Positions 1 through 52,914 of a stretch of DNA of 64,000 nt are shown one piece after another. Position 1 is the first letter of the stretch. Every line of letters begins with the position of its first letter. Location: positions 434,001 through 498,000 of the forward strand of contig NZ_WQHP01000002.1 in the NCBI RefSeq assembly GCF_013035315.1. Direction: 5' to 3'. A program made the translations under genes and the position numbers. The notes under the pieces are model-generated. The model was not told the origin of the DNA. It ran no database searches and saw nothing but the letters and a program-made list of their open reading frames with translations. The DNA is from Ruegeria arenilitoris (GTDB lineage: Bacteria > Pseudomonadota > Alphaproteobacteria > Rhodobacterales > Rhodobacteraceae).

Positions 1-417
1 GATCGTACCCGCGATATTCATCACCGGGCCCAGAAAGGCTTGTTCTTCGCCCAACGTGTGCTGCAAATGGCCGACTAACAACTCGCCACAATGCAAACCA
101 ATGCGCACGTCGGGTTGTTTACCGTCCATCTCAGAAAGCCGCTGAATGATCTTGCGCGCGCTTGCGATGGCTTTGATCGCATGATCTTCGTCCGCTTGCG
201 GCGAGCCAAACACCGCCAGCGCACCGTCGCCGGTAAACAAGGTTGTTGCGCCATTACTCTCGCAGGTTGACATGATCAATTCGATCGCTGGCCCAACCTG
301 ATCAATGGCATCCTCAGGATCCAGCGAGCCAATCATCATGGTTGATTTGACAATATCGACGAACATGACAGTACACATCTTGCGTTCTGTCGGTTCAATC
401 TGGACGTTGCCTATCAT
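1..417 (-). CDS. Class III adenylate/guanylate cyclase, N-terminal part (cut by window edge)
   Basis: Reading the minus strand from an ATG at 417 gives 139 residues with no stop before the window edge, so the C-terminus is missing. The protein opens almost directly into a class III nucleotide cyclase catalytic domain: the first metal-binding aspartate lies in MFVDIVKST, a second conserved stretch reads TGDGALAVFG, and HCGELLVG follows. It would convert ATP (or GTP) to the cyclic nucleotide. An in-frame stop at 514-516 and the lack of another start support ATG 417, preceded by a GCGAAAGA stretch. Whether the missing part carries sensor domains cannot be seen. A second, membrane-anchored cyclase lies at 35289. 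Nucleotide specificity is not decided by what is visible. Confidence 0.85.
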   Translation of the reverse strand, partial: MIGNVQIEPTERKMCTVMFVDIVKSTMMIGSLDPEDAIDQVGPAIELIMSTCESNGATTLFTGDGALAVFGSPQADEDHAIKAIASARKIIQRLSEMDGKQPDVRIGLHCGELLVGHLQHTLGEEQAFLGPVMNIAGTI

Positions 418-594
418 TCTTTCGCGTTCCCGTTTCGAAATGAGTATGCCGTTTGAATGTGAATTTTGCCAGTCCGTAAAAGCATGTTGCAGGTTTGGAC
501 GAGCCGTTATCCGTTAAACTTCGCGTGTCAAATTCGTTGAAACGACACAATAAATGAATTACGCGTAAAGATACATTTTTAAAGAGGTATGATC

Positions 595-876
595 GTGACT
601 GAAAAGCATAAACACGGCCTGACGCTTGAGGATGTTCAGACAATCATCGGGCGAGGCGTTCTTGATGAGGCATTCCGGCAAGCTTTTGTTCAAGACCCCG
701 AGACGGTTGTTAAACGTCTGGGCATTTCTGTCGAAGATGACGGTAACGCGCGTGACCTGCTGAAATCCATCGGCGAGGTTCTGGAAGGCGGTTCCGACGT
801 TCGGTCCGCAATGGATAAAATCAGATCAGCATACGAAGACTCTTCGGACGGCGTAATCCGGCCCCGCTGCGCCTAA
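595..876 (+). CDS. Candidate RiPP precursor peptide (leader-like, 93 aa)
   Basis: A small acidic protein directly in front of a RiPP-maturation radical SAM gene, with only 6 bp between them. Residues about 8-45 resemble the leader of Franean1_4349-type RiPP precursors: a helix LTLEDVQTIIGRGVLDEAFR, then a dPE element (QDPETVVKRLG) and a hydrophobic turn. The protein ends in SDGVIRPRCA with a penultimate cysteine, so the modified core would most likely be the last 10-20 residues. An ATG at 589 is possible, but GTG 595 sits 7 nt after the GAGG at 584-587, whereas ATG 589 is too close to it; GTG is preferred. No protease or exporter gene is adjacent. Precursor status is inferred from leader-like sequence and gene context; it could otherwise be an uncharacterised regulatory protein. 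Confidence 0.7.
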   Translation: MTEKHKHGLTLEDVQTIIGRGVLDEAFRQAFVQDPETVVKRLGISVEDDGNARDLLKSIGEVLEGGSDVRSAMDKIRSAYEDSSDGVIRPRCA

Positions 877-882
877 CGCGAA

Positions 883-2817
883 ATGAGCGAAGCGGCGTTA
901 AGCCAGCCCAACACCCCAGGCGCGGACCATCACCGCCTGTGCCTGGTATCTATGCCGTTTTCCTCGCTCCAGCATCCGGGGTTGGGGTTGGCCTTACTGG
1001 CGCAACTGGCCCGACGGGCGGGAGCGACGACGACCGAAAAGTTCTTTAGCTTTGACTTTGCCGAAGTGATCGGGCTGGACAGGTATTCGCTGCTGTCTGA
1101 CGGCAGGTTCTACCAGGCCCTTTTGGGCGAGTGGGTGTTCACCGACCTTATCTACCCACGCGAGGAAGCTGTTGCATTCGAATACCTAACCACTGTTTTG
1201 GCGGACCACGTGTCAGGTGTGGAATGGCTGACCGTCATGCAAGACGCTATTTCCGCCCGAAAAGCGGCCAAGGAATTCGTTGACCGCTGCGCTGAAGACA
1301 TTCTTTGGGACAATCCAACCGTCGTGGGTATTACGTCATCTTTCCAACAGGTTATGTCGTCATTGGCCATCGCCAAAGCCATAAGGCGCCGGTCGAACGA
1401 TGTGGTGATCGTGATGGGCGGCGCAAATTGCGAGGGTCCGCTGGGACAGACCCTGCTGCAGGCACATCCCGAACTGGACGCCGTTTGTATCGGCGAAGGG
1501 GACGAGGCGTTCCCCGAGTTTCTCAGCAATCTGCAATCTCGCGATGCCCTGCCCGAAACACCTGGCATCTTGACCCAAACGCACAACACCCGATCCCTTG
1601 AGGATGCGAAGGCGCCCCTGGTTACTGATCTGGACGCGTTGCCGGTGCCGGACTTTTCCTCGTTTTTTGACCGGTTTCACAACACCCCCGGGTTACCGGA
1701 CTTGTTCCAGCCTTCGCCGACAATCGAGACCTCGCGCGGGTGTTGGTGGGGGGCCAAGCATCACTGCACTTTCTGCGGCCTGAACGGCCAGTCGATGACC
1801 TATCGCAGCAAATCGGCCGAGCGTGCCTTTGCTGAATTCCGCGAGCTGGCGGATCTTTACGGTCCTGATCTGGTCGTCGTCGACAACATTCTGGACCACC
1901 GGTACCTCAGAACGTTGATCCCCAAACTGGCGCAGGACGAACGCCCGTTCCTGATGCATTATGAGGTCAAATCAAACCTGTCGCCGGCAGTGATTGCGTC
2001 ACTGGCCAACGGGGGCGTCCGCAAGGTTCAACCCGGAATCGAGACCTTCGACACCAAAACGCTTGCCCACATGCGCAAGGGCGTTTCCGGCATCCAGAAC
2101 ATTCAGACCTTGAAGCTTTGTGCTGAGGCGGGCGTCTTTGTCGAATGGTGTTTTCTCTATGGTTTCCCCGGAGAAGATCCCGAAGGTTTCAGCCGGATGG
2201 CGAAATTGATCCCGCACCTGCACCACCTGCAACCCCCGGGGTCGATTGGACCGGTTCGGGCGGACCGGTTCAGCCCCTATTTCGACTACCCCGAGGCCTA
2301 TGGCATTCAGGTTCGGCCGGCTAAACCGTATGGCTATATCTTCGACGTGCCGAACGAAGATCTTGCGCAGTACGCCTATCACTTTGACATCGTAGATGGG
2401 GATCAATCGGCGGCCCAGGATCGCGCCGCACCTACGCTTGATGCTTTGGCGATCTGGCAAAACGATGCGAGCACTGCTGAACTGTATCTGGATGGCGATG
2501 TCGTTGTGGACACGCGCGATCCCGATCAGTCTCACAAACACCAACTTTCGGCGACAGAAATCGCAGTTCTTGACCAAGCCCCAACCATTGTCGGCCGCGC
2601 CCAACTGCAGGACCGGTTGGAAGCCACCTTTGGACAGGACGCCGTTCGCGATGCAGTTCTCCGCCTGTTGGAGCTGAACCTTCTATATTCCGAAGAAGAC
2701 GCCGTGCTGTCACTGGTACTCAGGACACCGGGTTTCACTCGTGCGCCGGAATGGAGCGTGATCCGATCGCACCCGGAACTGGCGTTCTCAGTTCAACGCA
2801 GCGACGAATTTTGCTAA
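883..2817 (+). CDS. RiPP maturation radical SAM C-methyltransferase (B12-dependent type)
   Basis: A 644-residue protein with the architecture of the TIGR03975-type RiPP maturation family: an N-terminal cobalamin-binding-like domain (about residues 140-220, with VVIVMGGANCEG and CIGEGDEAFPEF), then a radical SAM domain (about 280-480) and a C-terminal extension. The iron-sulfur cluster cysteines are C287, C295 and C298 in RGCWWGAKHHCTFCGLNG, a CX7CX2C spacing characteristic of this family rather than the usual CX3CX2C. QPGIETF and GFPGEDPEGF are further conserved radical SAM features. Members are expected to methylate unactivated carbons in a precursor peptide. It forms a two-gene unit with the small leader-like protein at 595 and is followed by a convergent gene, so the cassette has no visible exporter or peptidase. 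Confidence 0.88.
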   Translation: MSEAALSQPNTPGADHHRLCLVSMPFSSLQHPGLGLALLAQLARRAGATTTEKFFSFDFAEVIGLDRYSLLSDGRFYQALLGEWVFTDLIYPREEAVAFEYLTTVLADHVSGVEWLTVMQDAISARKAAKEFVDRCAEDILWDNPTVVGITSSFQQVMSSLAIAKAIRRRSNDVVIVMGGANCEGPLGQTLLQAHPELDAVCIGEGDEAFPEFLSNLQSRDALPETPGILTQTHNTRSLEDAKAPLVTDLDALPVPDFSSFFDRFHNTPGLPDLFQPSPTIETSRGCWWGAKHHCTFCGLNGQSMTYRSKSAERAFAEFRELADLYGPDLVVVDNILDHRYLRTLIPKLAQDERPFLMHYEVKSNLSPAVIASLANGGVRKVQPGIETFDTKTLAHMRKGVSGIQNIQTLKLCAEAGVFVEWCFLYGFPGEDPEGFSRMAKLIPHLHHLQPPGSIGPVRADRFSPYFDYPEAYGIQVRPAKPYGYIFDVPNEDLAQYAYHFDIVDGDQSAAQDRAAPTLDALAIWQNDASTAELYLDGDVVVDTRDPDQSHKHQLSATEIAVLDQAPTIVGRAQLQDRLEATFGQDAVRDAVLRLLELNLLYSEEDAVLSLVLRTPGFTRAPEWSVIRSHPELAFSVQRSDEFC

Positions 2818-2843
2818 AATATAAGAAAGGGGCCAAGGCCCCT
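2815..2843 (-). terminator. Intrinsic terminator for the minus-strand monooxygenase remnant
   Basis: AGGGGCC (2828-2834) pairs with GGCCCCT (2837-2843). On the minus strand the hairpin is followed by a T-rich tract (TTTCTTATATTTT). It sits between convergent ends at 2817 and 2858 and may also stop the plus-strand RiPP transcript. Confidence 0.65.
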
Positions 2844-2857
2844 ATCTCCGAACTCGG

Positions 2858-3397
2858 TCACGAGAATGCCTTGATAACCTTGGCGTAGTTATCCAGCATC
2901 TCAAGCTCTTCTTCCTGCGTGAAGTAACCAACGTGGTGCCAAACCACGAACTCCTCGGTGTTGTACTTCTCTTTCAAGGCACCCACCTGATCGATGACCT
3001 GATTAACGGTACCCTTCCAGACGCGACCCATCGGTACGTGATATGGCGGCGCGTTATACGCGAAATTGAATAGCTCTTCGAAATCGCGATAGTGCTGTTC
3101 GGCTTGCGCTTCGGTCGAGCCAATGGTCAGGTGCCCGCCAAGCACCAGAGTGTTGCCAACGGTCAGATCGGTGTGACCGTGATGATGGGCTTCCTCAAGG
3201 TAGATCGGCATGGTCATGTCCATGAATTCGTCCTTCGAGACGAACGACACCAGTTTCGCCCCTTCCTTGGCCCAGAACTTCGCCGTTTCCATTGACCACG
3301 AGAACGGTACATAGAGCGGCGGGAAATCGCGCCCGTCGGTCCGTTCACGCGGACGCGGTACGATGCCCATCTTGCGCAGTGTGCCGTTTTCATCTGT
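2858..3397 (-). pseudogene. 5'-truncated LLM-class flavin-dependent monooxygenase remnant
   Basis: The reading frame aligns over its whole length with the C-terminal half of the intact luciferase-like monooxygenase at 13000-14133: shared stretches include MGIVPRP versus SGIVPRP, SMETAKFW, APPYHVP, GRVW and VWHHV. Homology continues upstream of the first ATG (3370) to about 3397 (DENGTLRK versus DENKILRK), and then stops at a TGA. About 190 N-terminal residues, including most of the barrel, are missing (170 versus 377 aa). Identity to the intact copy is only about half by eye, so this is a diverged paralogue, not a recent duplicate. An operator-like sequence remains just upstream (3416-3426). 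A short protein could still be made from ATG 3370, but it would be unlikely to be catalytic. Confidence 0.7.
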
Positions 3398-5317: not shown

Positions 5318-7603
5318 TCAGTTTTTTAGTGGCTTGCCGGTGGTCATGGTGTGGCGCATCCGCTCGATTGTCTTGTCCTGTCGGATCAGACGCATCATGC
5401 CTTCGGCCTCAAGCCTGTGCAGCGCTTCTTCGTCCAGAACGCCGCCTTCGCCCCCGGCCAGAACCTGTGCCGTCTCGCGTGCAATCTCGACCGTGTACGG
5501 GGCATCTGACATCGCCTCTGCCAAGGCCTTGAGTTTGGCGTTGATTGCGGCTGCATCCAGCGCAATCTCGGCCTTGGCAGGTGCCTGATAGCCATCCGCC
5601 AAAGCCAGAGCAGCCGCCTTTGCTTCGGCCAACAAACGATCGCGGTTCATGACCACGCCATCTGTTTGTCTCAGATAGCCAGCATGCTGCGCCAGCGGCG
5701 CAGAGCCGGTCATCAGCGCCGCCGAGATCACGTCAAACGCTGCGACGGCACCCTGGGTTGGATCTCCCAACTCGGCCGTCTTCCGCAACAACAAAGCAGT
5801 CGTTCCGCCCCAAGCTGGCAGCAGGCCAACATTGGCCTCAACCAAGCCGATATTACTTTCCAACACGGCCATGACCCGATCCGAATGCATCAGGATTTCG
5901 CAACCACCCCCAAGGGCCAGCCCACACGCAGCAGACACAACCGGGAACGGCGCGTATTTGATCTTGCGCATCGTCGCCTGACCGATGGCAAGTTGCCCTT
6001 CGACCAGATCCAGCTCGCCCGCATCGGCACGATCCAGCGCCTTTTTAAGGTTTGCACCAACCGAGAAGTGATTTCCGTCCGAGCCAATGACCATCGCCTT
6101 GAAGTCTCGGCCCACGACGTCCAACGCCTGGCTGACGCCGGTCATCACCAGATCGTCCAGCGCCGCATTGAGTGCGGTAATGGTCAGCAAAGCAACGCCA
6201 TCACCCATGTCCCGCAGCGCGACAGAGTCCGTCGCAAAGACCGGGTCATCCGTCAAATCCGAGGCAAAAATCACACCCGGGCCGCGCGGCACGTCCGCCT
6301 GTTCGCCGGACGGCAGCAGCACTTTCCGCGCCAGACCTGCGCCAGAGTAAATTCCACCACGTTCGGCTGCCAGCGCCAGCAAGGGCGGCACATCCTGCTC
6401 TTCGGACTTCAGACGCGCAGCAATCTTGTCCGCACCAATCCTGTCGATCAGCTTGAACGGACCCATGCGCCAGTTGTAACCCAGCTCCATAGCGGCATCG
6501 ATATCCGCCGGGTTGGCAGTAATTTCAGGAACGCACCAGGCCGCGTAAGACAACGTCGGGCCCATGACGGCCCAGGCATAATCGGCCAGCCGGTCCTCCG
6601 TTTGATCGATGAAATCAGCGCCAAACGTCTTGGCCAGTTCAGGTCCCTTAACCTGCGGGCGATAGTCAAGCGTGGCCAGATCAATCGCCTCGGCCTTGGG
6701 CTTGCCATTTTCATCCTTGGACCGGCGATAGAAACCGGCACCAGCTTTACGACCGGCCAATCCCTTGGCCGCCATCTTGTCGAAAAGGTCCAAACCTTCG
6801 GTATGGGTCTGCTGCGGGTCGTCCGCCTCAAGCAGGTTGCGCATCGACAGGCGCGATTTGCCCATCAGGTCGATCCCGATCAGATCCATCAGCGCAAACA
6901 CACCCGTGCCGGGCACACCAAAGGGGCGCGCCAGCACTGTGTCCGCCTCTTCCACCGTGATACCACGCGCCACAGCCTCGCGCGCGGCGGCGTTCATCCA
7001 CAGCCCGCCCAGGCGGTTAGCAATGAATCCGGGACGATCGTTGCAGGGTACAACGGTCTTGCCCAAACGCTCATCGCTAAAGGCACGCGCGCGCTCGGCA
7101 GCGGCCGGATCGGTGTCGGGGCCGGTTACAAGCTCGATCAGGCGCATGTAGCGCGGTGGGTTGAAGAAATGCACGATGACGAACCGCTTGCGCAGGCTCT
7201 CATCCATCGGGCCAACCAAGTCGGCCAATGGAATGGTCGAAGTGTTCGAACTGAGCAATGCGTCATCGCGCAGGTAAGGCGCGATTTTGGCATAGAGCGC
7301 GTGCTTGATGGAAAGGTCTTCCAAAACGACCTCAACCACCCAGTCGCATGTCGACAACTGGTCCAGATCATCCTCGAGATTGCCTGCCGTCAACCGGTCG
7401 GCATAGGCCGGATCTGCCAGTTGCGGCGCGCGACCCTTGGTCATGCGTGCGATGGCACCCTTGGCCAGCATCGCACGGTCTTCGGCATCCTGGGGAACGA
7501 TGTCCAGCAGAACAACCTCGGCGCCTGCGTTGGCGAAATGGGCGGCGATGCCTGCCCCCATCACACCCGAGCCGATGACGGCAACTTTATTGATCGCAGT
7601 CAT
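5318..7603 (-). CDS. 3-hydroxyacyl-CoA dehydrogenase / enoyl-CoA hydratase, FadN-type domain order
   Basis: A 761-residue bifunctional beta-oxidation enzyme. The NAD-binding hydroxyacyl-CoA dehydrogenase comes first (Rossmann motif VIGSGVMGAGIA at residue 8, NRPGFIANRLG-like stretch DRPGFIANRLGG near 195), followed by its C-terminal helical domains. A crotonase domain occupies about residues 440-720 (HFSVGANL, GGGCEILMHSD, GLVEANVGLLPAWGG). This is the reverse of the E. coli FadB order and matches the Bacillus FadN type. It hydrates enoyl-CoA and oxidises the 3-hydroxyacyl-CoA. The gene abuts the thiolase stop (0 bp) and precedes the acyl-CoA dehydrogenase by 11 bp, giving a fadA-fadN-fadE-like order. 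Confidence 0.9.
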   Translation of the reverse strand: MTAINKVAVIGSGVMGAGIAAHFANAGAEVVLLDIVPQDAEDRAMLAKGAIARMTKGRAPQLADPAYADRLTAGNLEDDLDQLSTCDWVVEVVLEDLSIKHALYAKIAPYLRDDALLSSNTSTIPLADLVGPMDESLRKRFVIVHFFNPPRYMRLIELVTGPDTDPAAAERARAFSDERLGKTVVPCNDRPGFIANRLGGLWMNAAAREAVARGITVEEADTVLARPFGVPGTGVFALMDLIGIDLMGKSRLSMRNLLEADDPQQTHTEGLDLFDKMAAKGLAGRKAGAGFYRRSKDENGKPKAEAIDLATLDYRPQVKGPELAKTFGADFIDQTEDRLADYAWAVMGPTLSYAAWCVPEITANPADIDAAMELGYNWRMGPFKLIDRIGADKIAARLKSEEQDVPPLLALAAERGGIYSGAGLARKVLLPSGEQADVPRGPGVIFASDLTDDPVFATDSVALRDMGDGVALLTITALNAALDDLVMTGVSQALDVVGRDFKAMVIGSDGNHFSVGANLKKALDRADAGELDLVEGQLAIGQATMRKIKYAPFPVVSAACGLALGGGCEILMHSDRVMAVLESNIGLVEANVGLLPAWGGTTALLLRKTAELGDPTQGAVAAFDVISAALMTGSAPLAQHAGYLRQTDGVVMNRDRLLAEAKAAALALADGYQAPAKAEIALDAAAINAKLKALAEAMSDAPYTVEIARETAQVLAGGEGGVLDEEALHRLEAEGMMRLIRQDKTIERMRHTMTTGKPLKN

Positions 7604-8785
7604 TTACAGAACCTCGAACAGGCCAGCCGCGCCCATGCCGCCGCCGATGCACATGGTGGCAACGATGTATTTGGCACCGCGTTTCTTACCCTCGATCAGC
7701 GCGTGGCCGACCATGCGGGTACCAGACATGCCATAAGGGTGACCCACCGAAATTGCGCCTCCATCGACGTTCAGAATTTCGTCCGGGATACCCAGCTTGT
7801 CGCGGCAGTAAAGCGCCTGCGACGCGAATGCCTCGTTCAGCTCCCAAAGGCCGATGTCGTCCATTTTCAGGCCGTTGCGTTCCAGCAGCTTCGGGACAGC
7901 AAAGACCGGGCCGATGCCCATCTCGTCGGGCTCACACCCGGCGACGACATAGCCGACATAACGCCCAATAGGCTCTAGCCCGCGCTTTTCTGCCAGCTTC
8001 TCTTCCATCACCACCTGCGCTGATCCACCGTCGGACAATTGCGAGGCGTTTCCGGCGGTGATCCACTTGTCCTCACCCATGACCGGAGCCAGACCGGCCA
8101 GGCTTTCCAGCGTGGTGGAAGGCCGGTTGCACTCGTCTTGCGTCAGCGTCACCTCCTCGTAGGTAATCTCACCGGTTTCTTTGTTCTTGTTGGCCTTCGT
8201 GACAGTGATCGGAACGATCTCATCATCGAATTTCCCTGCGGCCTGTGAGGCGGCGGTGCGTTGCTGGGATTGCAGGGCGAATGCGTCCTGCGCCTCGCGG
8301 CTGATGCCGTACCGTTCTGCTACCGTATCAGCGGTTTTGATCATCGGATCGTAAAAGCCGCGGACATTCTGTTCGATCCAATCCTCTTTCAGCCGGAACG
8401 TGTTGTCACGGCCCATCACCAGAGAGATGCTTTCCGCGCCTGCCCCAACGACAACGTCACAACCATCCACCATCACGCGCGAACAGGCGCGGGTCAGGGC
8501 CTCAAGACCTGAGGAACAGAACCGGTTGATCGTCTGGCCCGACGCCGTCACCGGCAGGCCCGCGCGCATGGCGACCTGACGGCCAAGGTTGCCGCCATTT
8601 GCGCCTTCGGGGACGGCATTGCCGATGATCACATCCTCAATCTCGGCAGGATCAACCCCAGCGCGCTTGACCGCTTCGGCTACGGCATGGCCGCCGTAAA
8701 CAGCGGGATGTGTGTCGTTGAAGGCGCCGCGGAAAGCTTTGCCAATGGCGGTACGAGCGGTCGAGACGATAACGGCAGAACGCAT
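7604..8785 (-). CDS. Acetyl-CoA C-acyltransferase (thiolase)
   Basis: A 393-residue thiolase, the normal family length. The acylated nucleophile is C90 in [11 protein letters not shown]. The C-terminal active-site His and Cys are in [14 protein letters not shown] and [12 protein letters not shown]. It carries out CoA-dependent cleavage of 3-ketoacyl-CoA, the last step of the beta-oxidation round encoded by the next two genes; the start of the FadN-like gene follows directly with no gap. A biosynthetic (condensing) role cannot be excluded by sequence, but the operon argues for degradation. Confidence 0.92.
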
Positions 8786-8809
8786 GATTATGATCCTTGA
8801 ACGGTGAGT

Positions 8810-10459
8810 TTAGTCGTCGGTGGGCAGCTTGTAGTCGGCGTATTGCTCACGCAGATGCAGCTTGGAGACTTTGCCGGTTGCGGTGTGCGGAAGCTCGGAC
8901 TGGAACACCACGTCATCGGGCGTCCACCATTTGGCGATCTGGCCGATATACAGCGCCAGAATATCTTCGCGGCTGACATCCGAACCCTCGCGCTTGACGG
9001 CAACGATCAGCGGGCGCTCGTCCCATTTTCGGTGCTTGGCGGCGATACAGGCGGCCTCAAGAACGTCCGGATGGCTCATGGCAATGTTTTCCAGATCGAT
9101 CGACGAAATCCATTCGCCCCCCGACTTGACTACATCCTTGGTTCGGTCTGTCAGGCGCAAATAGCCCTTTGGATCAATTGCGGCGACATCCCCGGTCGAG
9201 AACCAGCCGTCCTCGGTGAACGCATCGGCACCGGCCCCGCCCCAATAGCTGCTGGCCACCCAATGGCCGCGCACCTGCAACATTCCGGACGCTATTCCAT
9301 CGTGAGGCAGCAAATCGCCTTCATCATTCACGATGCGCATCTCGACGCCATAGAGCGCACGACCCTGTTTGGTTTTAATCTGTAAACGCTCATCAATGGG
9401 CAGTTTATCCTCGCCCCACTTGAGCATCGCCAGCGACCCGACCGGCGACAATTCGGTCATGCCCCAGCCGTGAACAACTTCGGTCTCGTGACCTTTCTCG
9501 ATCTTTTCGATCAATGACAGCGGTGCGGCCGAACCGCCCATCATGGCACGCTTGACGGTTCTCAACCGTTCGCCACGCTGGTCGAGATATTCATACAGAC
9601 CCAGCCAAACCGTCGGCACGCCCGAGATCATGGTGACCTCTTCGTTGTCCATCAACTCCTGCAGTGGCGCGGGATCCATGCCGGGCCCAGGCAGAACCAG
9701 TTTGGAACCGTTCATGATGCAGGCATAGGGCAGACCCCACGCGCAGGCGTGGAACATCGGCACCACGGGTAGCACCGCCTCGCGCGCAGTCAGGGCCAAC
9801 CATTCGCCGCCCGAAACACCCATCGCATGCAACACCGTTCCGCGGTGGGAATACAGCACGCCTTTGGGATTACCTGTCGTGCCAGAGGTATAACACAGAG
9901 CCATTGCGGCGTTTTCATCCAGCTCGGGCCAATCATAGACATCCGGCTTACCTGCGATCAGACTTTCGTAGTCACTGATCGGCGTCTTCATTTGCGGCAC
10001 CTGATCCTGTCCGGTCAGGCTGTACCAACCTTTGACAGTCGGGCAACGCTCCGACACCGCATCGATCAGCGGTGCAAAAGTCGTGTCGAAGAACATATGC
10101 GTGTCTTCGGCGTCGTTAACGATAAATGCGATTTGGTCCGGGTGCAGGCGCGGGTTGATCGTGTGACAAATCGCACCAATGCACGCCAATGCGTAATAGA
10201 GCTCCAAATGCCGATTGTTGTTCCAGGCCAGCGTTGCAACACGATCACCAGGCCCGACACCCAACTCGGTCAGCGCATGGGCCAGTTGTTGCGTCCGCCG
10301 CCCCATATCGGCAAAGCTGTAGCGGTCAATTGTCATGTCCGAGTTGCGCCAGACGATCTGCGCCTCGGGGTGCGCGCACATGCCATGACGGAAAATACTG
10401 GTCACGGTCAGCGGCATCGTCATGATTTGCCCGGGGATCGTTTTTGTTTCTATGCTCAT
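8810..10459 (-). CDS. AMP-forming acyl-CoA ligase (FadD/DmdB-like)
   Basis: An ANL-superfamily ligase of 549 residues that would activate a carboxylic acid with ATP and CoA. The P-loop YTSGTTGNPKGV is near residue 185, GWGMTELSP near 335, the STGD motif is in DGWFSTGDVAAID, and the adenylation lysine lies in the C-terminal HTATGKVSK. The start is placed at ATG 10459: GGGAGG (10463-10468) is an ideal ribosome binding site for it, while an ATG 12 nt upstream would contain that site. Its place between an amidase and a full beta-oxidation set suggests that it activates an acid released by the amidase or monooxygenase. The acid itself is not identifiable. Confidence 0.88.
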   Translation of the reverse strand: MSIETKTIPGQIMTMPLTVTSIFRHGMCAHPEAQIVWRNSDMTIDRYSFADMGRRTQQLAHALTELGVGPGDRVATLAWNNNRHLELYYALACIGAICHTINPRLHPDQIAFIVNDAEDTHMFFDTTFAPLIDAVSERCPTVKGWYSLTGQDQVPQMKTPISDYESLIAGKPDVYDWPELDENAAMALCYTSGTTGNPKGVLYSHRGTVLHAMGVSGGEWLALTAREAVLPVVPMFHACAWGLPYACIMNGSKLVLPGPGMDPAPLQELMDNEEVTMISGVPTVWLGLYEYLDQRGERLRTVKRAMMGGSAAPLSLIEKIEKGHETEVVHGWGMTELSPVGSLAMLKWGEDKLPIDERLQIKTKQGRALYGVEMRIVNDEGDLLPHDGIASGMLQVRGHWVASSYWGGAGADAFTEDGWFSTGDVAAIDPKGYLRLTDRTKDVVKSGGEWISSIDLENIAMSHPDVLEAACIAAKHRKWDERPLIVAVKREGSDVSREDILALYIGQIAKWWTPDDVVFQSELPHTATGKVSKLHLREQYADYKLPTDD

Positions 10460-10498
10460 TTTGCCTCCCAAATTCTTCTGCTTTGCACGTTTGTGGGG

Positions 10499-11887
10499 TC
10501 ACAACGGTGCAGGCGACATTGCTCCGATTTCCTGTTCAACCCGCCAAGACATCTGCAATACGCCCAGATCGTCGAAACGTTTCCCGACCAATTGAACGCC
10601 GATTGGCAGACCATAGCGGTCCAGCCCAGTCGGGATGCTGGATGCGGGTTGTTCCGTCAGATTGAACAGGAACGTATTCGCCCAGCTTTCAAACGGCTTG
10701 GCCGGGTTGAACCCCGGCAATTCTGCAGCAAAGGCCGTGTCAGGTGTCGATGGCAGCAGGATGAAATCATACCCGTCGATCAACGCCAGCGCGCGTTCGC
10801 GCAGTGCTTGCGTGTGGTCGAAATTGCGCTGATGCTCGACGGCGGACAAACTACGCCCATCTGCGGTCCAGTCGCGGATGTACGGCGTTTTGTCCTGCTC
10901 GGCATCCGGTTGGCGCATCAACTCGGACAGGGTTCGAATTTTGTAAAACGCCTCAGCCGGTTCCCAGTCGGAGCGACTGAACGGAGCTGTATCCATGGTT
11001 GTCACCTGAACGCCCAGGTCCCGCAGCACCTGCGCAACCTTGTTCACCGCATTGCGAACGCCTTCTGTGACGGGTTCACCCAGCCCCAGTTCGGGAATGA
11101 CCAGAACTGACAGCCTGTCAAAATCAGAACGTCTGAGGCGGGATACGTAGTTCACGTCGTCCCGGGCCAAGGCGGCGAAATCGCGGACGTCCTCACCGGT
11201 CAGCACGTTCATATGCAGCGCAACATCGCTGAAATTCCGCGCCAAGGGACCCGCAGTGATCGCCGGACTGTTGCAGACGTAGTAAGGCACACGGCCCTGG
11301 CTGGGCTTCAGACCCGCCAACCCGCAATATGAGGCGGGCAAACGGATCGACCCAACGATATCGGTCCCGATCGAGACCGGCTCGATCCCAGCCGCGACAC
11401 TTGCTGACGCACCCGAAGACGACGCGCCGGTTGTACGCGACAAATCCCAGGGGTTGCGTGTCACGCCGTGTTTCGAACTGACGCCACCCGCAAGAATCCC
11501 GTAGTCGCACATCGTGTTCTTGCCGAGGATGACGGATCCGGCCTCGCGCATCCGTGCAACTGTCGGGTGATCGGTGGTGCCGATCGACGCAGACCCGGCC
11601 GCCGAACCGCGGTAGGCGGGCATGCCGATACAATCCAGGGCGTCCTTCACCGTGGTTGGCACCCCGTCTAGTGGGCCCATCGGCGCATTGTCGTGCCAGC
11701 GTTGTTCTGACGCCTTTGCGGCCTCAAGCGCGCGCTCGGCGTCTGTATAATAGATCGCGTTGATCTGCGGGTTGACCGCATCAATCCTGTCCAGCGCAGC
11801 CTGTGTGACCTCGACTGGAGACAATTCCAGCCGGGCATAGGCCTGCACCATGGCAAGCGCCGAGAGTTGCGAATAGGGGGCCGTCAT
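10499..11887 (-). CDS. Amidase (amidase signature family)
   Basis: A 462-residue amidase-signature hydrolase. The Ser-cisSer-Lys triad is readable as K81 (GVPTTVKDALD), S156 (TTGASSSGAS) and S180 (GTDIVGSIRLP), with the spacing of fatty-acid amide hydrolase and GatA relatives. It would hydrolyse an amide to acid plus ammonia or amine. An open frame extends upstream to 12124, but that part overlaps the neighbouring gene in another frame and shows no amidase similarity, so the start is set at ATG 11887. It sits 28 bp after the NTF2-like gene and 39 bp before the CoA ligase, consistent with making the acid that the ligase activates. GatA is unlikely because gatB and gatC are absent. Confidence 0.85.
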   Translation of the reverse strand: MTAPYSQLSALAMVQAYARLELSPVEVTQAALDRIDAVNPQINAIYYTDAERALEAAKASEQRWHDNAPMGPLDGVPTTVKDALDCIGMPAYRGSAAGSASIGTTDHPTVARMREAGSVILGKNTMCDYGILAGGVSSKHGVTRNPWDLSRTTGASSSGASASVAAGIEPVSIGTDIVGSIRLPASYCGLAGLKPSQGRVPYYVCNSPAITAGPLARNFSDVALHMNVLTGEDVRDFAALARDDVNYVSRLRRSDFDRLSVLVIPELGLGEPVTEGVRNAVNKVAQVLRDLGVQVTTMDTAPFSRSDWEPAEAFYKIRTLSELMRQPDAEQDKTPYIRDWTADGRSLSAVEHQRNFDHTQALRERALALIDGYDFILLPSTPDTAFAAELPGFNPAKPFESWANTFLFNLTEQPASSIPTGLDRYGLPIGVQLVGKRFDDLGVLQMSWRVEQEIGAMSPAPL

Positions 11888-15540: not shown

Positions 15541-17637
15541 ATGACATCGCAACCCTTGCGCCTGGCCATCGATATTGGCGGCACCTTCACCGATACGGTT
15601 CTCGTTTCCGGTAATGAGACCATTCTGGCCTCGACCAAGACACTTACGACCCACCAGAACCCAGCCGATGGCGCGATGGAAGGCGCCCGGCGCGTCATGG
15701 ACCAATCAGGTCGCGCGCTGAGCGAGGTGACCGGGTTTATCCACGGCACGACACTGGCGACAAATGCACTGATCGAACGACGCGGAGCCACAGTCGCGAC
15801 CGTAACGACGGAAGGGTTCCGCGATATCCTCGAAATCGCCTACGAACGGCGCTACGCTCAGTACAACATCAACCTTGAAAAGCCTGATCTGCTGGTGCCA
15901 CGCGAACGGGCGCTGACCATCCGGGAACGAATGGCCGCAGATGGCAATGTGCTGATCCCGCTGGAAGACAATGCTATCGACGCGCTGTTGGCCGATCTGG
16001 ACGCCACTGGGGTCGATGCGGTTGCGATCTGCCTGATGCACGCTTATGCGAACCCCTCGCATGAACGCAGACTGTGTGAAATTCTGGCTGAAAAACGCCC
16101 CAATTTGACCGTGTCGATCTCCTCGGACGTCAGCCCGGAAGCGCGTGAATTTGACCGGCTGTGCACAACGGTGGCCAACGCTTATATCCAGCCGCTGATG
16201 GAGACTTACCTGGCGCGGTTTGTGGCGCAGTTCCAGGCCGCGGGCGTCGGCTGTCCGATCCTAATGATGACAGCGGGTGGCGGTATGTGCACTGTACAGA
16301 CCGCCTCGCGCTTTCCTATCCGTTTGGTCGAAAGCGGCCCCGCAGGGGGTGCTGTTCTGGCGGCGCGCATTGCGGCACGTGCGGGTATCGACAATGTGTT
16401 GTCTTTCGACGTCGGCGGGACCACTGCAAAACTCTGCCTGATCGACAACGCGCGCCCGCAGACGTCGCGGCAGTTCGAAATTGCCCGCGCGGCGCGGTTC
16501 ATCAAGGGTTCGGGAATGCCGGTGCGTATTCCCGTGATCGAGATGATCGAAATTGGCGCGGGCGGAGGGTCAATCGCCGGGGTGGATCGGCTGGGGCGGC
16601 TGACCGTAGGACCCAAATCCGCCGGGTCAGAACCCGGCCCCGTGGCTTTTGGTCGGGGCGGCACCGAACCAACAGTAACCGACAGCGACATCACCTTGGG
16701 CTATATCGTACCCGACACCTTCGCCGAAGGGTTTATCCAGATCGACCCCGAAGCGTCCAAAGCAGCGCTCACCAGAACCATAGGTACCAAGTTGGATACC
16801 GATGCTATCGGCGCGGCAGATGGTGTCAGCCGGATCGTCGATGAAAGCATGGCCAGCGCGGGCCGTATGCATGCGGTGGAATCTGGCAAGGACCTTGGGC
16901 CACGCACGATGATAGCGTTTGGCGGCAACGGCCCGCTGCATGCCAGCCGAGTGGCCCGATCCGCCGGGGTCAGCCGCATTGTGATCCCGCCCAACCCGGG
17001 CGTCGGATCTGCGGTCGGCTTCCTGTTCGCTTCGGTCAGCTTTGAAATTGTCCGGTCCCGCTATTCCCTGCTGGAAACATTGGACCTGGGCGGGATCAAC
17101 GCCCTGTTTGCCGACATGATCACCGAGGCCAGCGACGTCGTGGCCCAAGGCGCAGGCGACGCGCCAACTGAAACACAACGCACAGCCTTCATGCGCTACA
17201 ACGGTCAGGGTCATGAGATCGAGATCGCCCTCCCCGATCGCGACTTGACGGCAGAGGATATCCCACCGCTGATCACCGCGTTCGAGGCGGAATACCGCAA
17301 GCAGTTTTCGCGCCCGGTGCCAGGGATGCAGATCGAGATCCTGAACTGGGCAGTACGTGTTGCAAATCCGGATACGGATGTGCCTGAATTGCCGGAAACG
17401 CCACCCCTGACAACAATCACCCCAGGCCAGACCCGCCCGATCATATGTGACGTGGATGGCCACCAAAAACAGGCCGGTTTTGTACCACGCGATACCCTGA
17501 AGCCGGGCGACCGCGTCCGCGGACCGGCGTTGATCACAGAACCGCAGACCACCACTTTGGTTTCGGCCGATTTCTCGGCACATGTTGATGCCATTGGAAA
17601 CCTTGTCCTGATCCAAGACCAGAAAGGAGGCGCATAA
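15541..17637 (+). CDS. hyuA: Hydantoinase/oxoprolinase subunit A
   Basis: A 698-residue HyuA-type protein of normal length, the ATP-binding subunit of N-methylhydantoinase/5-oxoprolinase-like enzymes. Two actin-fold (ASKHA) phosphate loops are visible: AIDIGGTFTDTVL at residue 9 and SFDVGGTTAKLCLID near 298. Conserved stretches HGTTLATNALIERRG and EIGAGGGSIAGVD are present. With subunit B it would hydrolyse a cyclic amide (hydantoin, 5-oxoproline or similar) using ATP. It is the first gene of a tightly coupled four-gene operon; its stop overlaps the hyuB start by one base (TAATG). Confidence 0.9.
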   Translation: MTSQPLRLAIDIGGTFTDTVLVSGNETILASTKTLTTHQNPADGAMEGARRVMDQSGRALSEVTGFIHGTTLATNALIERRGATVATVTTEGFRDILEIAYERRYAQYNINLEKPDLLVPRERALTIRERMAADGNVLIPLEDNAIDALLADLDATGVDAVAICLMHAYANPSHERRLCEILAEKRPNLTVSISSDVSPEAREFDRLCTTVANAYIQPLMETYLARFVAQFQAAGVGCPILMMTAGGGMCTVQTASRFPIRLVESGPAGGAVLAARIAARAGIDNVLSFDVGGTTAKLCLIDNARPQTSRQFEIARAARFIKGSGMPVRIPVIEMIEIGAGGGSIAGVDRLGRLTVGPKSAGSEPGPVAFGRGGTEPTVTDSDITLGYIVPDTFAEGFIQIDPEASKAALTRTIGTKLDTDAIGAADGVSRIVDESMASAGRMHAVESGKDLGPRTMIAFGGNGPLHASRVARSAGVSRIVIPPNPGVGSAVGFLFASVSFEIVRSRYSLLETLDLGGINALFADMITEASDVVAQGAGDAPTETQRTAFMRYNGQGHEIEIALPDRDLTAEDIPPLITAFEAEYRKQFSRPVPGMQIEILNWAVRVANPDTDVPELPETPPLTTITPGQTRPIICDVDGHQKQAGFVPRDTLKPGDRVRGPALITEPQTTTLVSADFSAHVDAIGNLVLIQDQKGGA

Positions 17638-19289
17638 TGACCGCCGACATATCTGCCGCCCGCCTACAAGTGATGTGGAACCGCCTTCTTGCGGTGGTCG
17701 AAGAGCAAGGCCAAACCCTTATCCGGGCAGCGTTTTCGCCCATTGTGCGCGAATGCGGTGATATCTCAGCCGGGATCTTCGACGCCTCTGGCCGGATGCT
17801 GGCGCAAGCGGTCACCGGCACGCCCGGCCATATCAACACGATGGCCGAAGCCGTGATGCACCTGCGCGACCAGTTCCCTGTTCAGACAATGAAGCCCGGC
17901 GATATCTACATGACTAACGACCCTTGGCTAGCTTCGGGGCACCTAAACGATTTCCTGCTGATGATGCCAGCGTTCAAAAACGGCAAGGTCATCGGCTTTA
18001 CCTCGTGCACCTCGCATCTGGTGGACCTTGGAGGTCTGGGCATGGGCCCTGAAGGCTCGGATATCTACGACGAGGGCCTGCTGATCCCTCCCTGCAAACT
18101 GGTCGACGAAGGTGTGCCCAACGCCCTGCTGCTGGATATCGTCCGCGCCAACAGCCGCGAACCGATTGCGAATGAGGGTGATATCTACGCTCTGATCGCC
18201 TGCTGCGAGGCCGGAGTGACCCGCCTGCTGGATATGATGGAAGAATTCGACATCGACGATCTGGATGCGTTGGGCAGTTATATCATCGACACGTCCCGCC
18301 GCGGCACGCTTGAGGCCATCGCCGAGGTGCCGGAAGGCATCTACAAGAACATGCTGAAGATGGACGGTTATGAGAATGAGTTGGAATTGCATGCGACCCT
18401 GACAGTCAGCAAACAGGGCATGCATGTTGATTTTGCGGGAACCTCGGGCTGTTCGCGCAAGGGTATCAACGTACCGCTCAACTATGCCACGGCTTACACC
18501 GTCTTTGCCCTGCGTTGCATCGTTGGTTCGGACATCCCCAATAACGCTGGATCGCTGGAACCTTTTACCGTCGACGGACCAAAGGGTTGTATCCTGAACG
18601 CGCAGCGGCCCGTTCCAGTGGCGATGCGACACACATTGGGACAAGTGACGCCCGATCTGGTTTTGGGATGCCTGCATCAGGCCCTGCCCGATGAGGTTCC
18701 AGCCGAAGGCGCGTCCTGCATGTTCGATTTGCCGATGCGCCACGCTCCCGAAGTTGCCCGTGACGGCGGGCGCGAGTTCGCCGTTGAACCGGTCCACAAC
18801 GGTGGCACCGGCGCACGACCACATGCGGACGGCCTGTCGGCCACCGCCTATCCTTCGGGCGTGTTTGGATCGCAAGTCGAGATCACCGAAAGCGTGGCGC
18901 CGGTCACCATCTGGCGGCGCGAGCTGCGCCCCGATTCCGGTGGTGCAGGCAAGTATCGCGGCGGTCTCGGTCAACGGATCGAGATGACCTCGGCCAATGA
19001 TGCGCCCTTCCTCGTGTTCCTGTCGGTTGAACGTCTGAAGTTCCCCGCTCTTGGTCGTATGGGCGGACAGCCCGGCGCACCCGGGCGCATTCGCTTCCGC
19101 GACGGTGAAAGCGACATTCCCGGCAAAGGTGAACTGCGCGTCGAACCGGGTGATTACCTTATCTTTGAAACACCCGGCGGCGGCGGCTTTGGCGACCCGG
19201 CCGAGCGCGATCCCAATGCTGTTGCGCTGGACCTCAAACGTGGGTTTATCAGTAACGCGGGTGCGAAATCCTACGGAGATGTCTCATGA
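17637..19289 (+). CDS. hyuB: Hydantoinase/oxoprolinase subunit B
   Basis: A 550-residue HyuB family protein. The diagnostic start (LQVMWNRLLAVVEEQGQTL) and the conserved DISAGIFDASGRMLAQAVTG, YMTNDPWLASGHLNDF and HLVDLGG-type stretches are all present. The C-terminal ETPGGGGFGDP motif closes the family domain. It pairs with HyuA for ring opening of a cyclic amide. The first base of its ATG is the last base of the hyuA stop, and its own last four bases (ATGA) start the next gene, so the subunits and the aminotransferase are translationally coupled. Confidence 0.9.
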   Translation: MTADISAARLQVMWNRLLAVVEEQGQTLIRAAFSPIVRECGDISAGIFDASGRMLAQAVTGTPGHINTMAEAVMHLRDQFPVQTMKPGDIYMTNDPWLASGHLNDFLLMMPAFKNGKVIGFTSCTSHLVDLGGLGMGPEGSDIYDEGLLIPPCKLVDEGVPNALLLDIVRANSREPIANEGDIYALIACCEAGVTRLLDMMEEFDIDDLDALGSYIIDTSRRGTLEAIAEVPEGIYKNMLKMDGYENELELHATLTVSKQGMHVDFAGTSGCSRKGINVPLNYATAYTVFALRCIVGSDIPNNAGSLEPFTVDGPKGCILNAQRPVPVAMRHTLGQVTPDLVLGCLHQALPDEVPAEGASCMFDLPMRHAPEVARDGGREFAVEPVHNGGTGARPHADGLSATAYPSGVFGSQVEITESVAPVTIWRRELRPDSGGAGKYRGGLGQRIEMTSANDAPFLVFLSVERLKFPALGRMGGQPGAPGRIRFRDGESDIPGKGELRVEPGDYLIFETPGGGGFGDPAERDPNAVALDLKRGFISNAGAKSYGDVS

Positions 19290-20353
19290 TCCGCCCCGTT
19301 CCCCACGTCGGTGCGATGGCGGCCTATGCGCTGGCTGATCTTGGTGACCAGCAAACGATCTCGCTGGCGCAAAACGAAAGCGCGTTTCCGGCAAGCCCTG
19401 CATCCATTGCGGCGGGAAAGGCCGCGATGGGCGAACTGCCGCTCTATCCCGACCCTGAATGGCCCAACCTGCGCGCGGCGATCGTCGAAGTGCACGGGTT
19501 GGACCCTGCGAGAATCCTTTGCGGCGCGGGCTCGATGGAGCTGATCGGATGTCTGATCCGAGCCTATGCCGGACCGGGCAACCGGGTACTGGGTACTGAC
19601 TACGGCTACGCTTTCGTCGCCTCGGCATCAGCCCAGGTGCAGGCGGACTACGTCAAGGCGCGCGAAGTCGACCTGACCGTTTCGATTGACGATACTCTTG
19701 ACGCGGTTACTCCAGAGACGCGGATCGTCTTTGTCTGCAATCCCGGCAATCCCACCGGCACGTTGATCCCGAACTCGGACATCCAGCGACTGCGGGACGA
19801 ACTGCCCGCAGATGTGATGCTGGTCGTGGATCAGGCCTATGCTGAATTTTCCGACCAAACCCATAACCCAGCCGAGATTTTCGCGCTTGCTGATCGGGGC
19901 GACACGGTGGTCCTGCGCACGTTCTCCAAGGCTTACGGTCTTGCCGGTGCGCGCGTGGGTTGGGGTTACTTTCCGGCTGAAATCGCAAGTGAGCTGCGCA
20001 AGCTGCTTAATCCAAACAATATCTCCATCGCTGCCCAAGCCGCAGCATCCGCCGCGATGCGCGATCAGCCCCACATGAAGGATGTGGTTTCCCGGACAGC
20101 CAAAATCAGAGACCGGTTTGCCCAAGACTGTCGGGCCTTGGGTCTGGCCGTTCCTGAAAGCCATACCAATTTCGTGCTATTGCGCTTTGCTTCTGTCGAA
20201 GACGCAAAACGTGCAGATGCAGCCCTGCGCGCCGATAACCTGTTGATGCGCGGCATGGGGGGTTATGGCCTGAGCGACTGCCTCAGGGCTACGATCTGCC
20301 AAGCCCCAATCATGAATCGCTGCCTGACCGCCCTGAAAGGAGTGTTGAGATGA
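19286..20353 (+). CDS. PLP-dependent aminotransferase, HisC-like (class I/II)
   Basis: A 355-residue fold-type I aminotransferase close to histidinol-phosphate aminotransferases in length and layout. The cofactor lysine is in RTFSKAYGLAGARVGW (about residue 217). NPGNPTGT and VDQAYAEF carry the Asn and Asp/Tyr that hold PLP. It overlaps hyuB by 4 bp and the racemase-like gene by 4 bp, so it probably acts on an amino acid released by the hydantoinase rather than in histidine synthesis. The amino donor and acceptor cannot be read from sequence. Confidence 0.85.
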   Translation: MIRPVPHVGAMAAYALADLGDQQTISLAQNESAFPASPASIAAGKAAMGELPLYPDPEWPNLRAAIVEVHGLDPARILCGAGSMELIGCLIRAYAGPGNRVLGTDYGYAFVASASAQVQADYVKAREVDLTVSIDDTLDAVTPETRIVFVCNPGNPTGTLIPNSDIQRLRDELPADVMLVVDQAYAEFSDQTHNPAEIFALADRGDTVVLRTFSKAYGLAGARVGWGYFPAEIASELRKLLNPNNISIAAQAAASAAMRDQPHMKDVVSRTAKIRDRFAQDCRALGLAVPESHTNFVLLRFASVEDAKRADAALRADNLLMRGMGGYGLSDCLRATICQAPIMNRCLTALKGVLR

Positions 20354-21087
20354 CCGAAACACGAACCGCGGCCAAAATCGGTGTTCTGGTACCCTTCACC
20401 AACACGAACCTAGAGCCGGATCTGGAGTTGATGAGACCGCCGAACACCACGGTCCATTTCCAACGCATGGGTGGGTATGACGTGGATGAGATTCCCGGCT
20501 CGGACCAAATGGCGGGTCTGGGGGCCTCGGATATCAGCCACGACCTGCGCATGATCTCAGGCGTGCGTCCGGATGCGGTGCTGTATGGTTGCACCTCGGC
20601 CACTCTGACCCACGGACCCGCCTTTGACACGGATCTGGCGGATCAGATCAAAGCGGGCTCGGGCGCGATTTCCCTGACGGCGGCGGGCGCTCTGATAGAG
20701 GGGATCAAGGCAGTCGGCGCAACACGTGTCGGTTTCTCATCCCCTTATCTGGGTGAGATCAATGTTCAGGCCATCGATTTCATGGCCCTAAATGGAATCG
20801 AAACCGTCAGATGCGCCGACGTGGGCCGCGAACTGGGCAATTATGGTCAGGGCGAGCTGACCCCTGACGAGGTATTTGACCTGGCCTGTCAGGCCGATCA
20901 TCCCGACGCGCAGGCGATTGTCCTGAGCTGTACCGATATGCGTTCGGTTGAGGCGATAGACCGTATCGAGGCGGCTTTGGACAAACCGGTCGTCACGTCC
21001 AATCAGGCAATGATGTTTGGCTTGATGAAGGCCCTGAACCTGCCCCGTCACGACGCCCTGCCCGGGCGTCTATTCGATAGGTTTTAA
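20350..21087 (+). CDS. Asp/Glu/hydantoin racemase superfamily protein (maleate isomerase/AMDase-like)
   Basis: A 245-residue member of the Asp/Glu racemase superfamily, nearer to arylmalonate decarboxylases and maleate cis-trans isomerases (VLVPFTNTNLEPDLELMRP at the N-terminus). The two candidate catalytic cysteines lie in YGCTSATLTHG (near residue 79) and LSCTDMRSVE (near 195), both in the expected positions, so the two-cysteine racemase/isomerase pair looks intact. It ends the hyuAB operon. Interconverting or isomerising an intermediate of that pathway is the best guess. A terminator-like hairpin follows at 21095-21120. Confidence 0.8.
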   Translation: MTETRTAAKIGVLVPFTNTNLEPDLELMRPPNTTVHFQRMGGYDVDEIPGSDQMAGLGASDISHDLRMISGVRPDAVLYGCTSATLTHGPAFDTDLADQIKAGSGAISLTAAGALIEGIKAVGATRVGFSSPYLGEINVQAIDFMALNGIETVRCADVGRELGNYGQGELTPDEVFDLACQADHPDAQAIVLSCTDMRSVEAIDRIEAALDKPVVTSNQAMMFGLMKALNLPRHDALPGRLFDRF

Positions 21088-51364: not shown

Positions 51365-52264
51365 GTGACATCACGTGAGACACTAAAATTTGGGTTAGGC
51401 CTTTTTAAGCGCGGGATTGGGTTACCGGTTTCTGCAGCGTGGGCGAGATTAATGGCAACTGGTATTCGCCCTCCAGCTATGATCGGTGCTTATCCAGACT
51501 ATGCGACAGCCGCAATTAACACGAACGGCAATGGGTATAACGATGAAGACGTAGCACAGGTAAATGCTGAGCTGATGCGCAAAACTACAGTTTGGGATTA
51601 CCCGGTAATTTATTGGATCAATGAAGTATTCAGCGAAGGAATGCATCTGCTGGATGCGGGCGGGCATTTCGGATCCAAGTATATTGCCTTTGGAGACTTG
51701 TGCCCTATCGATAGGCTGCACTGGATAGTTTATGATTTGCCAATAACAATTAGTCTGGCCCGTGCCGCGCAAGAGAAACAAGAATTACCTGCCGAGATTG
51801 TGTTTCAAGACCACCTATCAGAAGTTGGTTCTGTAGATGTTTTGCTGGCGTCTGGTCTTTTGCAATACTTGGATATTTCCCTGGCAGAGTTGGTCGGAGA
51901 ACTGGACTCCCCCCCCAAATACATTTTGTTGAACAAAGTTGCTACGCGCTGTGGCCCGTCTATTGTAACTCTAGAAAAGATCGGGCCTGGCCGGGTCCCA
52001 TATCAGATCAGAAACCAAGTGGAATTTGAAAAAGGTCTGACCGAAATGGGTTATGTCATACGCGATCAGTGGGACATTCCGTCTCTAAGTCACGTCGTCT
52101 CAACGCATCCGGGCTTGGGTCCAAGTGTCAGCCGAGGCTACTTCTTGGAACGTTGTGATCAAGCTCTAACAATCGGTTCGCCCGATTGCCAGCAAAGCTC
52201 AACAGGGCCGTCCGTGTCGCGCAGGGCCAAAGCACCGACCCAACCCGGCGCAGGCTCGAGGTGA
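51365..52264 (+). CDS. Methyltransferase, TIGR04325 family
   Basis: A 299-residue protein. The family's SAM-binding motif is HLLDAGGHFGSKYIAF (about residue 95), preceded by a conserved helix and followed by IVYDLPITISLARA and DVLLASGLLQYLD, all typical of TIGR04325 putative methyltransferases found in polysaccharide loci. Translation appears to start at GTG 51365. The last 35 or so codons overlap the convergent phosphopantetheinyl transferase gene and are low-complexity, so the natural domain ends near SRGYFLERCD. Likely role: methylation of a sugar or a linked group. Confidence 0.8.
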   Translation: MTSRETLKFGLGLFKRGIGLPVSAAWARLMATGIRPPAMIGAYPDYATAAINTNGNGYNDEDVAQVNAELMRKTTVWDYPVIYWINEVFSEGMHLLDAGGHFGSKYIAFGDLCPIDRLHWIVYDLPITISLARAAQEKQELPAEIVFQDHLSEVGSVDVLLASGLLQYLDISLAELVGELDSPPKYILLNKVATRCGPSIVTLEKIGPGRVPYQIRNQVEFEKGLTEMGYVIRDQWDIPSLSHVVSTHPGLGPSVSRGYFLERCDQALTIGSPDCQQSSTGPSVSRRAKAPTQPGAGSR

Positions 52265-52851: not shown

Positions 52852-52914
52852 ACTCCTCTGTTCAGATTCTGAAATCTTCTCGCGAAAAACCCAACTAGTC
52901 GATAGGGTGTCTAC

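Follow-up and report, generated by a model that had tools for sequence, protein, structure and literature searches.

Several described systems come close to parts of the locus analysed here. The Os1348/PosA and PflA precursors of the Pseudomonas pos and pfl clusters, gathered in the NF038399 profile, come closest in leader family to the precursor reported below, whose profile match lies just under the cut-off, and, like it, lack a double-Gly site. Their family also ends in a conserved C-terminal motif, given as ARMD in the relevant passage of the published account (PMC12636437), whereas the tail here is a different one; their partners, as far as that part of the literature names them, are a GNAT, an HEXXH enzyme, a nitroreductase-type enzyme and transporters rather than a B12-dependent radical SAM enzyme and a cyclase. 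Classical NHLP clusters (TIGR03793; Haft et al. 2010) have a related leader, and the passage that bears on them (PMC2887384) describes a Gly-Gly site, an ABC exporter and a hypervariable core, in contrast to a locus with no conserved Gly-Gly, no shared exporter and a conserved core. The TIGR03975 C-methyltransferases have the profile and the B12 domain of the radical SAM enzyme found here, and PoyC of polytheonamide can be likened to it by its published description, in which a Cx7Cx2C spacing is named as a peculiarity of PoyC and the enzyme methylates the beta-carbons of Val and Ile (relevant passage of the review PMC11285071). Unlike these systems, the present locus has one short tail, no other shared modifying enzyme or exporter, and a STAND cyclase as partner. 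Class III cyclase-AAA-TPR (STAND) proteins such as 6mfv, CyaC and Cya2 show the same domain order and folds as that partner, which in our case is coupled to a RiPP pair and differs in its base-specifying and transition-state residues. Cyclases in the vicinity of RiPP genes have some precedent in the literature: adenylate cyclases and a SPASM radical SAM enzyme are mentioned in the graspetide gene clusters of branch 6 (PMC8939145); these are ATP-grasp/YcaO clusters, and a link to TIGR03975, NHLP or STAND proteins is absent from the relevant passage. Pycsar systems pair a cyclase with an effector.

The window, a stretch of 64,000 nucleotides of Ruegeria arenilitoris (contig NZ_WQHP01000002.1, positions 434,001 to 498,000), begins within a three-gene cassette in which, with a probability of about 0.5, a C-methylated peptide works with, and most likely controls, a STAND cyclase. 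The genes and their motifs, the conserved tail, the co-occurrence of the three genes and their presence as a single insert are established; it is the genetic association that suggests the peptide as ligand or regulator of the cyclase, and ligand sensing by the TPR part is proposed by analogy. The following features were assigned:

1..417, minus strand: first 139 codons of the class III cyclase-STAND-TPR gene (963 aa in total), the rest of which lies beyond the window, up to contig position C12:431529
418..594, no strand: divergent intergenic region between the cyclase and precursor genes, 177 bp, with an imperfect palindrome found also in L034 only
595..876, plus strand: RiPP precursor gene, 93 aa, GTG start, Os1348/NHLP-clan leader (profile, alignment, codon data, AF2 model)
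625..735, plus strand: leader with conserved helical motif, precursor residues 11-47 (alignment; NF038399 match; helices at 11-41 in the AF2 model)
844..873, plus strand: C-terminal tail SDGVIRPRCA, precursor residues 84-93, predicted core (conservation; pLDDT < 50 at 86-93)
883..2817, plus strand: B12-binding radical SAM enzyme, TIGR03975, 644 aa, predicted peptide C-methyltransferase (NCBIfam, Pfam)
1183..1521, plus strand: B12-binding domain PF02310, residues 101-213 of the radical SAM enzyme (Pfam)
1741..1776, plus strand: Cx7Cx2C cluster motif, residues 287-298 of the radical SAM enzyme (motif alignment; PoyC spacing as in the relevant passage of PMC11285071)
2827..2843, minus strand: terminator-like stem at the cassette end (from a scan yielding no more sites than in shuffles)
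2858..3370: remnant of an LLM-class flavin gene at the insert edge, 170 aa versus 378 in L123 (homology comparison)

The precursor frame occupies 589-876 and would give 95 aa from an in-frame ATG at 589 or 93 aa from the GTG at 595. An AGAGG box at 583-587 is spaced 7 nt from the GTG versus 1 nt from the ATG, and the GTG/Val start position is matched in L034 and L035. The product contains DEAFRQAFVQDPE and has the C-terminus RPRCA, and 6 bp separate its stop from the start of the radical SAM frame. The dN/dS of the gene is low (~0.24 versus L034, ~0.21 versus L035) and its tail codons vary synonymously with the peptide unchanged, which together argue that the precursor is not a chance ORF. Its match to the NF038399 Os1348 profile, over residues 12-47, reaches 39.8 bits, just below the cut-off of 40; among five other clade precursors scanned, L002 (41.0), L040 (41.1) and L041 (41.4) lie above 40 bits and L037 (32.5) and L038 (36.1) below. 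Weaker matches, to TIGR03793 (24.4 bits, cut-off 50.9) and TIGR04509, were also below cut-off. The RiPP pair itself is of a known kind and is so annotated in the record of Ruegeria sp. B32, where the precursor orthologue is named as Os1348 family NHLP clan. The closest solved structure by profile is 6lk7 (Os1348), a weak match (E 0.0024), and a fold search with the precursor model placed three 6lk7 chains at ranks 1-3, again weakly (E 0.4-0.55); the model itself has a mean pLDDT of 73 and five helices, and its tail is disordered from residue 86.

The precursor ends in the motif DGV[IL]RPRC plus a final A, G or M in 10 out of 10 loci of the clade (nine distinct precursor sequences), across Roseobacteraceae and Rhizobiaceae, and the segment between leader motif and tail is variable. 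The core is most likely the last ~10 residues. No conserved Gly-Gly site occurs in the alignment of the ten precursors, and a hypervariable bacteriocin core can be ruled out for this clade by the conserved tail. The preliminary description had seen in this pair a 93-residue leader-like protein ending in RPRCA, 6 bp ahead of a TIGR03975 gene, with its core near the C-terminus. The ORF coordinates and the profile score of the enzyme bear out the arrangement, the small protein is read as an Os1348/NHLP-type precursor, and conservation places the core where it had been expected. The core sequence, unrecognised in that description, is strongly conserved, whereas classical NHLP precursors have a hypervariable one; this speaks against a plain natural product of an arms race.

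The radical SAM enzyme matches TIGR03975 at 576.3 bits (cut-off 281.85) over profile positions 2-606 of 606, its PF02310 (B12-binding) and PF04055 (Radical_SAM) domains both score above cut-off, and Cx7Cx2C is kept in 87 out of 87 aligned radical SAM rows. From its family membership, it most likely C-methylates the precursor tail, which supplies Val87 and Ile/Leu88. Ten other TIGR03975-linked precursors, which form a second group with an unrelated leader, feature V/I-R-P/A-C repeats: IR[PA]C occurs 15 times in six of the ten versus a shuffle mean of 0.1, and [VI]R[PAQ] is likewise enriched, with both patterns picked post hoc and both counts inflated by internal repeats; the exact string VIRP occurs 0 times. 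This likeness across two precursor groups may be a hint, not proof, of a common recognition element. The second group (L051, L054, L059, L066, L067, L072, L074, L078, L089 and L105), hosted by Paracoccus, Acidobacteria and others, has its precursor upstream of the radical SAM gene, a leader like EMRVAELEDKL, a Cys-rich repetitive core (IRAC, VRPC and VVQQC in several) and a Gly-rich end. Other surroundings of TIGR03975 enzymes were also seen: a conserved small protein (ISAQV...PPPDFGP) downstream in 12 loci (L048, L052, L053, L058, L064, L068, L075, L085, L092 and three more), a putative 2OG oxygenase (named by eye) nearby in 11 loci, and, in a same-family genome, an ORF with recurring IHYHG motifs (L007, 660-1367) upstream of two tandem TIGR03975 genes.

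The window opens inside the third gene, which is transcribed divergently and whose remainder was read from the adjoining contig sequence (L033). The protein has the domain order Guanylate_cyc (PF00211, 45.9 bits, cut-off 21.9), AAA_16 (PF13191, 82 bits, Walker A/B motifs retained) and TPR (TPR_12 at its cut-off, 30.1). The metal-binding residues D21 and D64 are present in 17 out of 17 cyclase rows. The Lys that we take to specify the base is found in none of the 17 and is Leu in the window's protein; of the residues presumed to stabilize the transition state, the Asn is found in six rows and retained in the window's protein, and the Arg is found in nine and replaced there by Thr. Such a non-canonical active site may mean a different product or inactivity. 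The AF2 model (16 rows) has a mean pLDDT of 83, and its top match in the fold search was the STAND-TPR protein 6mfv, at E 1.8e-13 but with a TM of only 0.28 by query, followed by class III cyclases, with Avs3 at rank 27. PADLOC gave weak PycC matches confined to the cyclase domain (best E 1.2e-6), no match for the radical SAM enzyme or the precursor at E 0.01, and no Pycsar effector among the three proteins. Proteins matching over both the cyclase and ATPase parts number four in the own genome, trio member included.

For the intergenic region between the divergent genes, a common operator was considered and rejected, the palindrome being confined to the window and L034. Among nine such regions, one 7-mer recurs in five, but no 8-mer or 9-mer does, and a sigma-70 scan was uninformative (0 sites).

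The same trio lies on a plasmid of Ruegeria sp. B32 (identity 60% for the cyclase, 65% for the precursor and 68% for the radical SAM enzyme). A contig scan with two radical SAM proteins returned 254 relatives; the analysis used the best 80 matches, corresponding to 78 loci (L034-L111), with adjacency of the cyclase defined as a tblastn match at E <= 1e-5 in the sequence around the radical SAM gene. The cyclase adjoins it in 15 of these 78 loci, divergently in L034-L041 and on the same strand in L043, L044, L045, L047, L049, L050 and L081; the other 63 have no cyclase match, including 15 with < 4 kb upstream of the radical SAM gene, which could conceal one. In a tree of 84 radical SAM rows (the 87 less L001, L005 and L003, repeats of others), the 10 DGVIRPRC rows form one group (support 99), and a second cyclase group of 8 rows, to which L046, on a cut contig without cyclase match, was assigned, forms another (support 99). 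These two and Thiobacillus L042 make up one group (support 98), with the branching among the three unresolved, and all 15 cyclase-adjacent loci fall within it. L042 has precursor and radical SAM enzyme, and no cyclase within its 8 kb. Across 17 loci, pairwise distances of cyclase and radical SAM enzyme correlate at r = 0.978, and inside the two groups at 0.992 and 0.971, which could come partly from shared descent. As a side observation, the L042 record (a Thiobacillus MAG, 6697-11287) encodes in a row an NHLP precursor that scores 53 bits with NF038399, a small radical SAM protein, the TIGR03975 enzyme and a clostripain-family peptidase.

The preliminary description had spoken of a two-gene cassette, and here it needs amending: the STAND cyclase gene belongs to the conserved unit, being present in all ten clade loci, in the same genomes of the genus and in one insert. 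Cyclase, precursor and radical SAM genes are the only ones common to the ten loci when chosen ORFs are compared, a choice that missed the precursor or radical SAM gene in some of them, where a separate locus comparison shows them. Near relatives share flanks in pairs (window and L034; L002 and L036; L038 and L039), and the 10 loci thus represent seven flank settings. Widespread genes, for example TRAP or ABC components, recur beside some of the ten. No exporter or protease gene is common to them in the comparison of shared genes, in keeping with the absence noted earlier for the window, and neither is a gene for immunity, a leader peptidase, an oxidoreductase partner or metal handling. With no protease or exporter common to the ten, the peptide is likelier to act inside the cell or to be processed by host enzymes than to have a secretion route of its own.

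Of 54 genus genomes, five match the precursor profile, the cyclase occurs at E <= 1e-70 in the same five, and the radical SAM enzyme at E <= 1e-50 in those five plus one distant member (35% identity); four of the five correspond to loci L034, L035, L036 and L041. No cyclase orthologue (E 1e-70) stands apart from the precursor-radical SAM pair in the 54, and each genome with the precursor also has the radical SAM enzyme, which leaves the idea of a precursor family independent of the enzyme, named in the preliminary description as a refuting outcome, unsupported in the genus; the same pair, which that description proposed to look for in related strains, recurs with the cyclase in the ten loci. 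In wider sets, 295 evenly drawn family genomes gave the precursor in the own genome alone, a TIGR03975 match was present above cut-off in seven of 394 family genomes, own included, and a credible precursor match only in the own genome among 385 class genomes, where an extra match (E 7e-4) inside a 718-aa frame was taken as chance.

The trio in the window is an insert of ~5.4 kb between thiolase and acyl-CoA dehydrogenase genes (named by eye). Both flanks are present in eight of the 54 genus genomes, and the trio sits at this site in two of them, the own genome and G433. Five others carry different genes at this place, and G398 has only 91 bp there and the trio elsewhere in its genome. Homology to the five ends at the thiolase end and resumes in four near window 2838-2858, directly after the radical SAM gene, within the LLM-flavin gene. 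Two of these four have that gene at full length, with 378 aa in L123 and as part of a 439-aa frame in L124; in the other two it is broken or short. These break points indicate that the difference amounts to ~5.4 kb with just three genes. Farther along, a like-ordered block of hydantoinase A/B, aminotransferase and Asp/Glu racemase genes (names from the B32 record) lies at window 15541-21087 and at L002 6342-11996, downstream of the cassette in the window and directly upstream in B32, and window 52159-53028 and 59629-62124 hold, by eye, a phosphopantetheinyl transferase and an NRPS condensation-domain protein, with polysaccharide-type genes nearby.

In the neighbouring clade, the cyclase lies upstream of the pair on the same strand, and in three of its seven cyclase-bearing loci (L044, L047 and L050) a Crp-type gene (cNMP_binding plus HTH_Crp_2) starts 2-3 bp past the radical SAM gene; none occurs in L043, L045 or L049, and the L081 contig stops inside the radical SAM gene. 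No Crp-type gene is common to the ten loci of the window's own clade. The precursor tails of the neighbouring clade are MAEC/MAEM in six of eight and different in L045 and L049, and all lack DGVIRPRC. In L047 (2427-4118) and L081 (2621-4327), a gene next to the cyclase and divergent from it encodes an S41-family peptidase, possibly a processing enzyme there.

How far these results favour a peptide-controlled cyclase depends on what else the trio could be. It could make a modified, bacteriocin-like antimicrobial, with the cyclase-STAND protein as the regulator that switches the cluster on. The trio is accessory, in five of the 54 genus genomes, and weapons are often accessory in genomes. Deletion of Os1348 also lowers antibiotic activity in Pseudomonas sp. 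Os17, according to the relevant passage of PMC7726476. However, a tail kept from Roseobacteraceae to Rhizobiaceae is not hypervariable, and the lack of a fourth gene common to the 10 loci leaves no place for an immunity, exporter or leader peptidase gene, which makes this reading rather unlikely. The same lack of a shared protease or exporter, together with the conserved penultimate Cys and RPRC, would suit a modified protein that stays whole in the cell, cofactor-like or binding metal or redox centres through its Arg/Cys tail, with the cyclase sensing the same stress; full-length Os1348 was detected in whole-cell lysates, as the pertinent section of PMC12636437 states. No oxidoreductase partner or metal gene is common to the loci, however, and we regard such a role as unlikely.

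The cyclase could also be a passenger beside a two-gene RiPP cassette, since proteins of its kind are not rare (the four in the own genome) and L042 has the pair without it; this is improbable given the trio in 10 out of 10 loci with seven flank settings, its identical presence pattern in 54 genomes, and its recurrence in two gene orders in two clades. An anti-phage or abortive module, with a STAND sensor, a cyclase effector (Pycsar- or Avs-like) and the peptide as an accessory, could account for the PycC matches, the Avs3 fold match, and an accessory presence at a variable site. However, the PycC matches stay within the cyclase domain, the radical SAM enzyme and precursor have no PADLOC match at E 0.01, and the unit holds no effector gene; we consider this highly improbable. 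On the one hand, the reading of the cyclase as receptor of the peptide is favoured by the 10 loci in seven flank settings, the same five of 54 genomes, the distance correlation and the three Crp-type loci. On the other hand, the non-canonical active site, the absence of Crp in the own clade, the differing tails of the neighbouring clade and L042 without cyclase argue against it.

As a mechanism, the helical leader of this NHLP/Os1348-clan precursor would dock on the TIGR03975 enzyme, as suggested by the family. The B12-dependent enzyme would then most likely C-methylate DGV(I/L)RPRC, a first guess being the beta-carbon of Val87/Ile88. The cyclase-STAND-TPR protein would work with the modified peptide, most likely as its receptor, and the peptide would control nucleotide output. 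More tentatively, and with less likelihood than the mechanism just described, there may be a peptide-gated cyclic-nucleotide module of proteobacteria, in which the C-methylated conserved tail would be a dedicated ligand of the co-encoded STAND-TPR cyclase, with a Crp-type receptor completing the operon in one branch. In the open-licence literature searched, no description was found of the conserved tail, the dedicated STAND cyclase or their unit-wise presence. If the module exists, the RiPP would not be an antibiotic but a ligand that regulates a second-messenger enzyme, or else it would report B12/SAM/redox state. A tail that is conserved and partly resembles the V/I-R-P/A-C repeats also suggests where the large TIGR03975 family acts. 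That the three genes recur together in relatives is a hint of a signalling module under peptide control, as opposed to an antibiotic on its own; should the peptide control the cyclase, radical-SAM peptide chemistry would be tied to second-messenger signalling in Gram-negative bacteria, in a compact and testable three-gene system.
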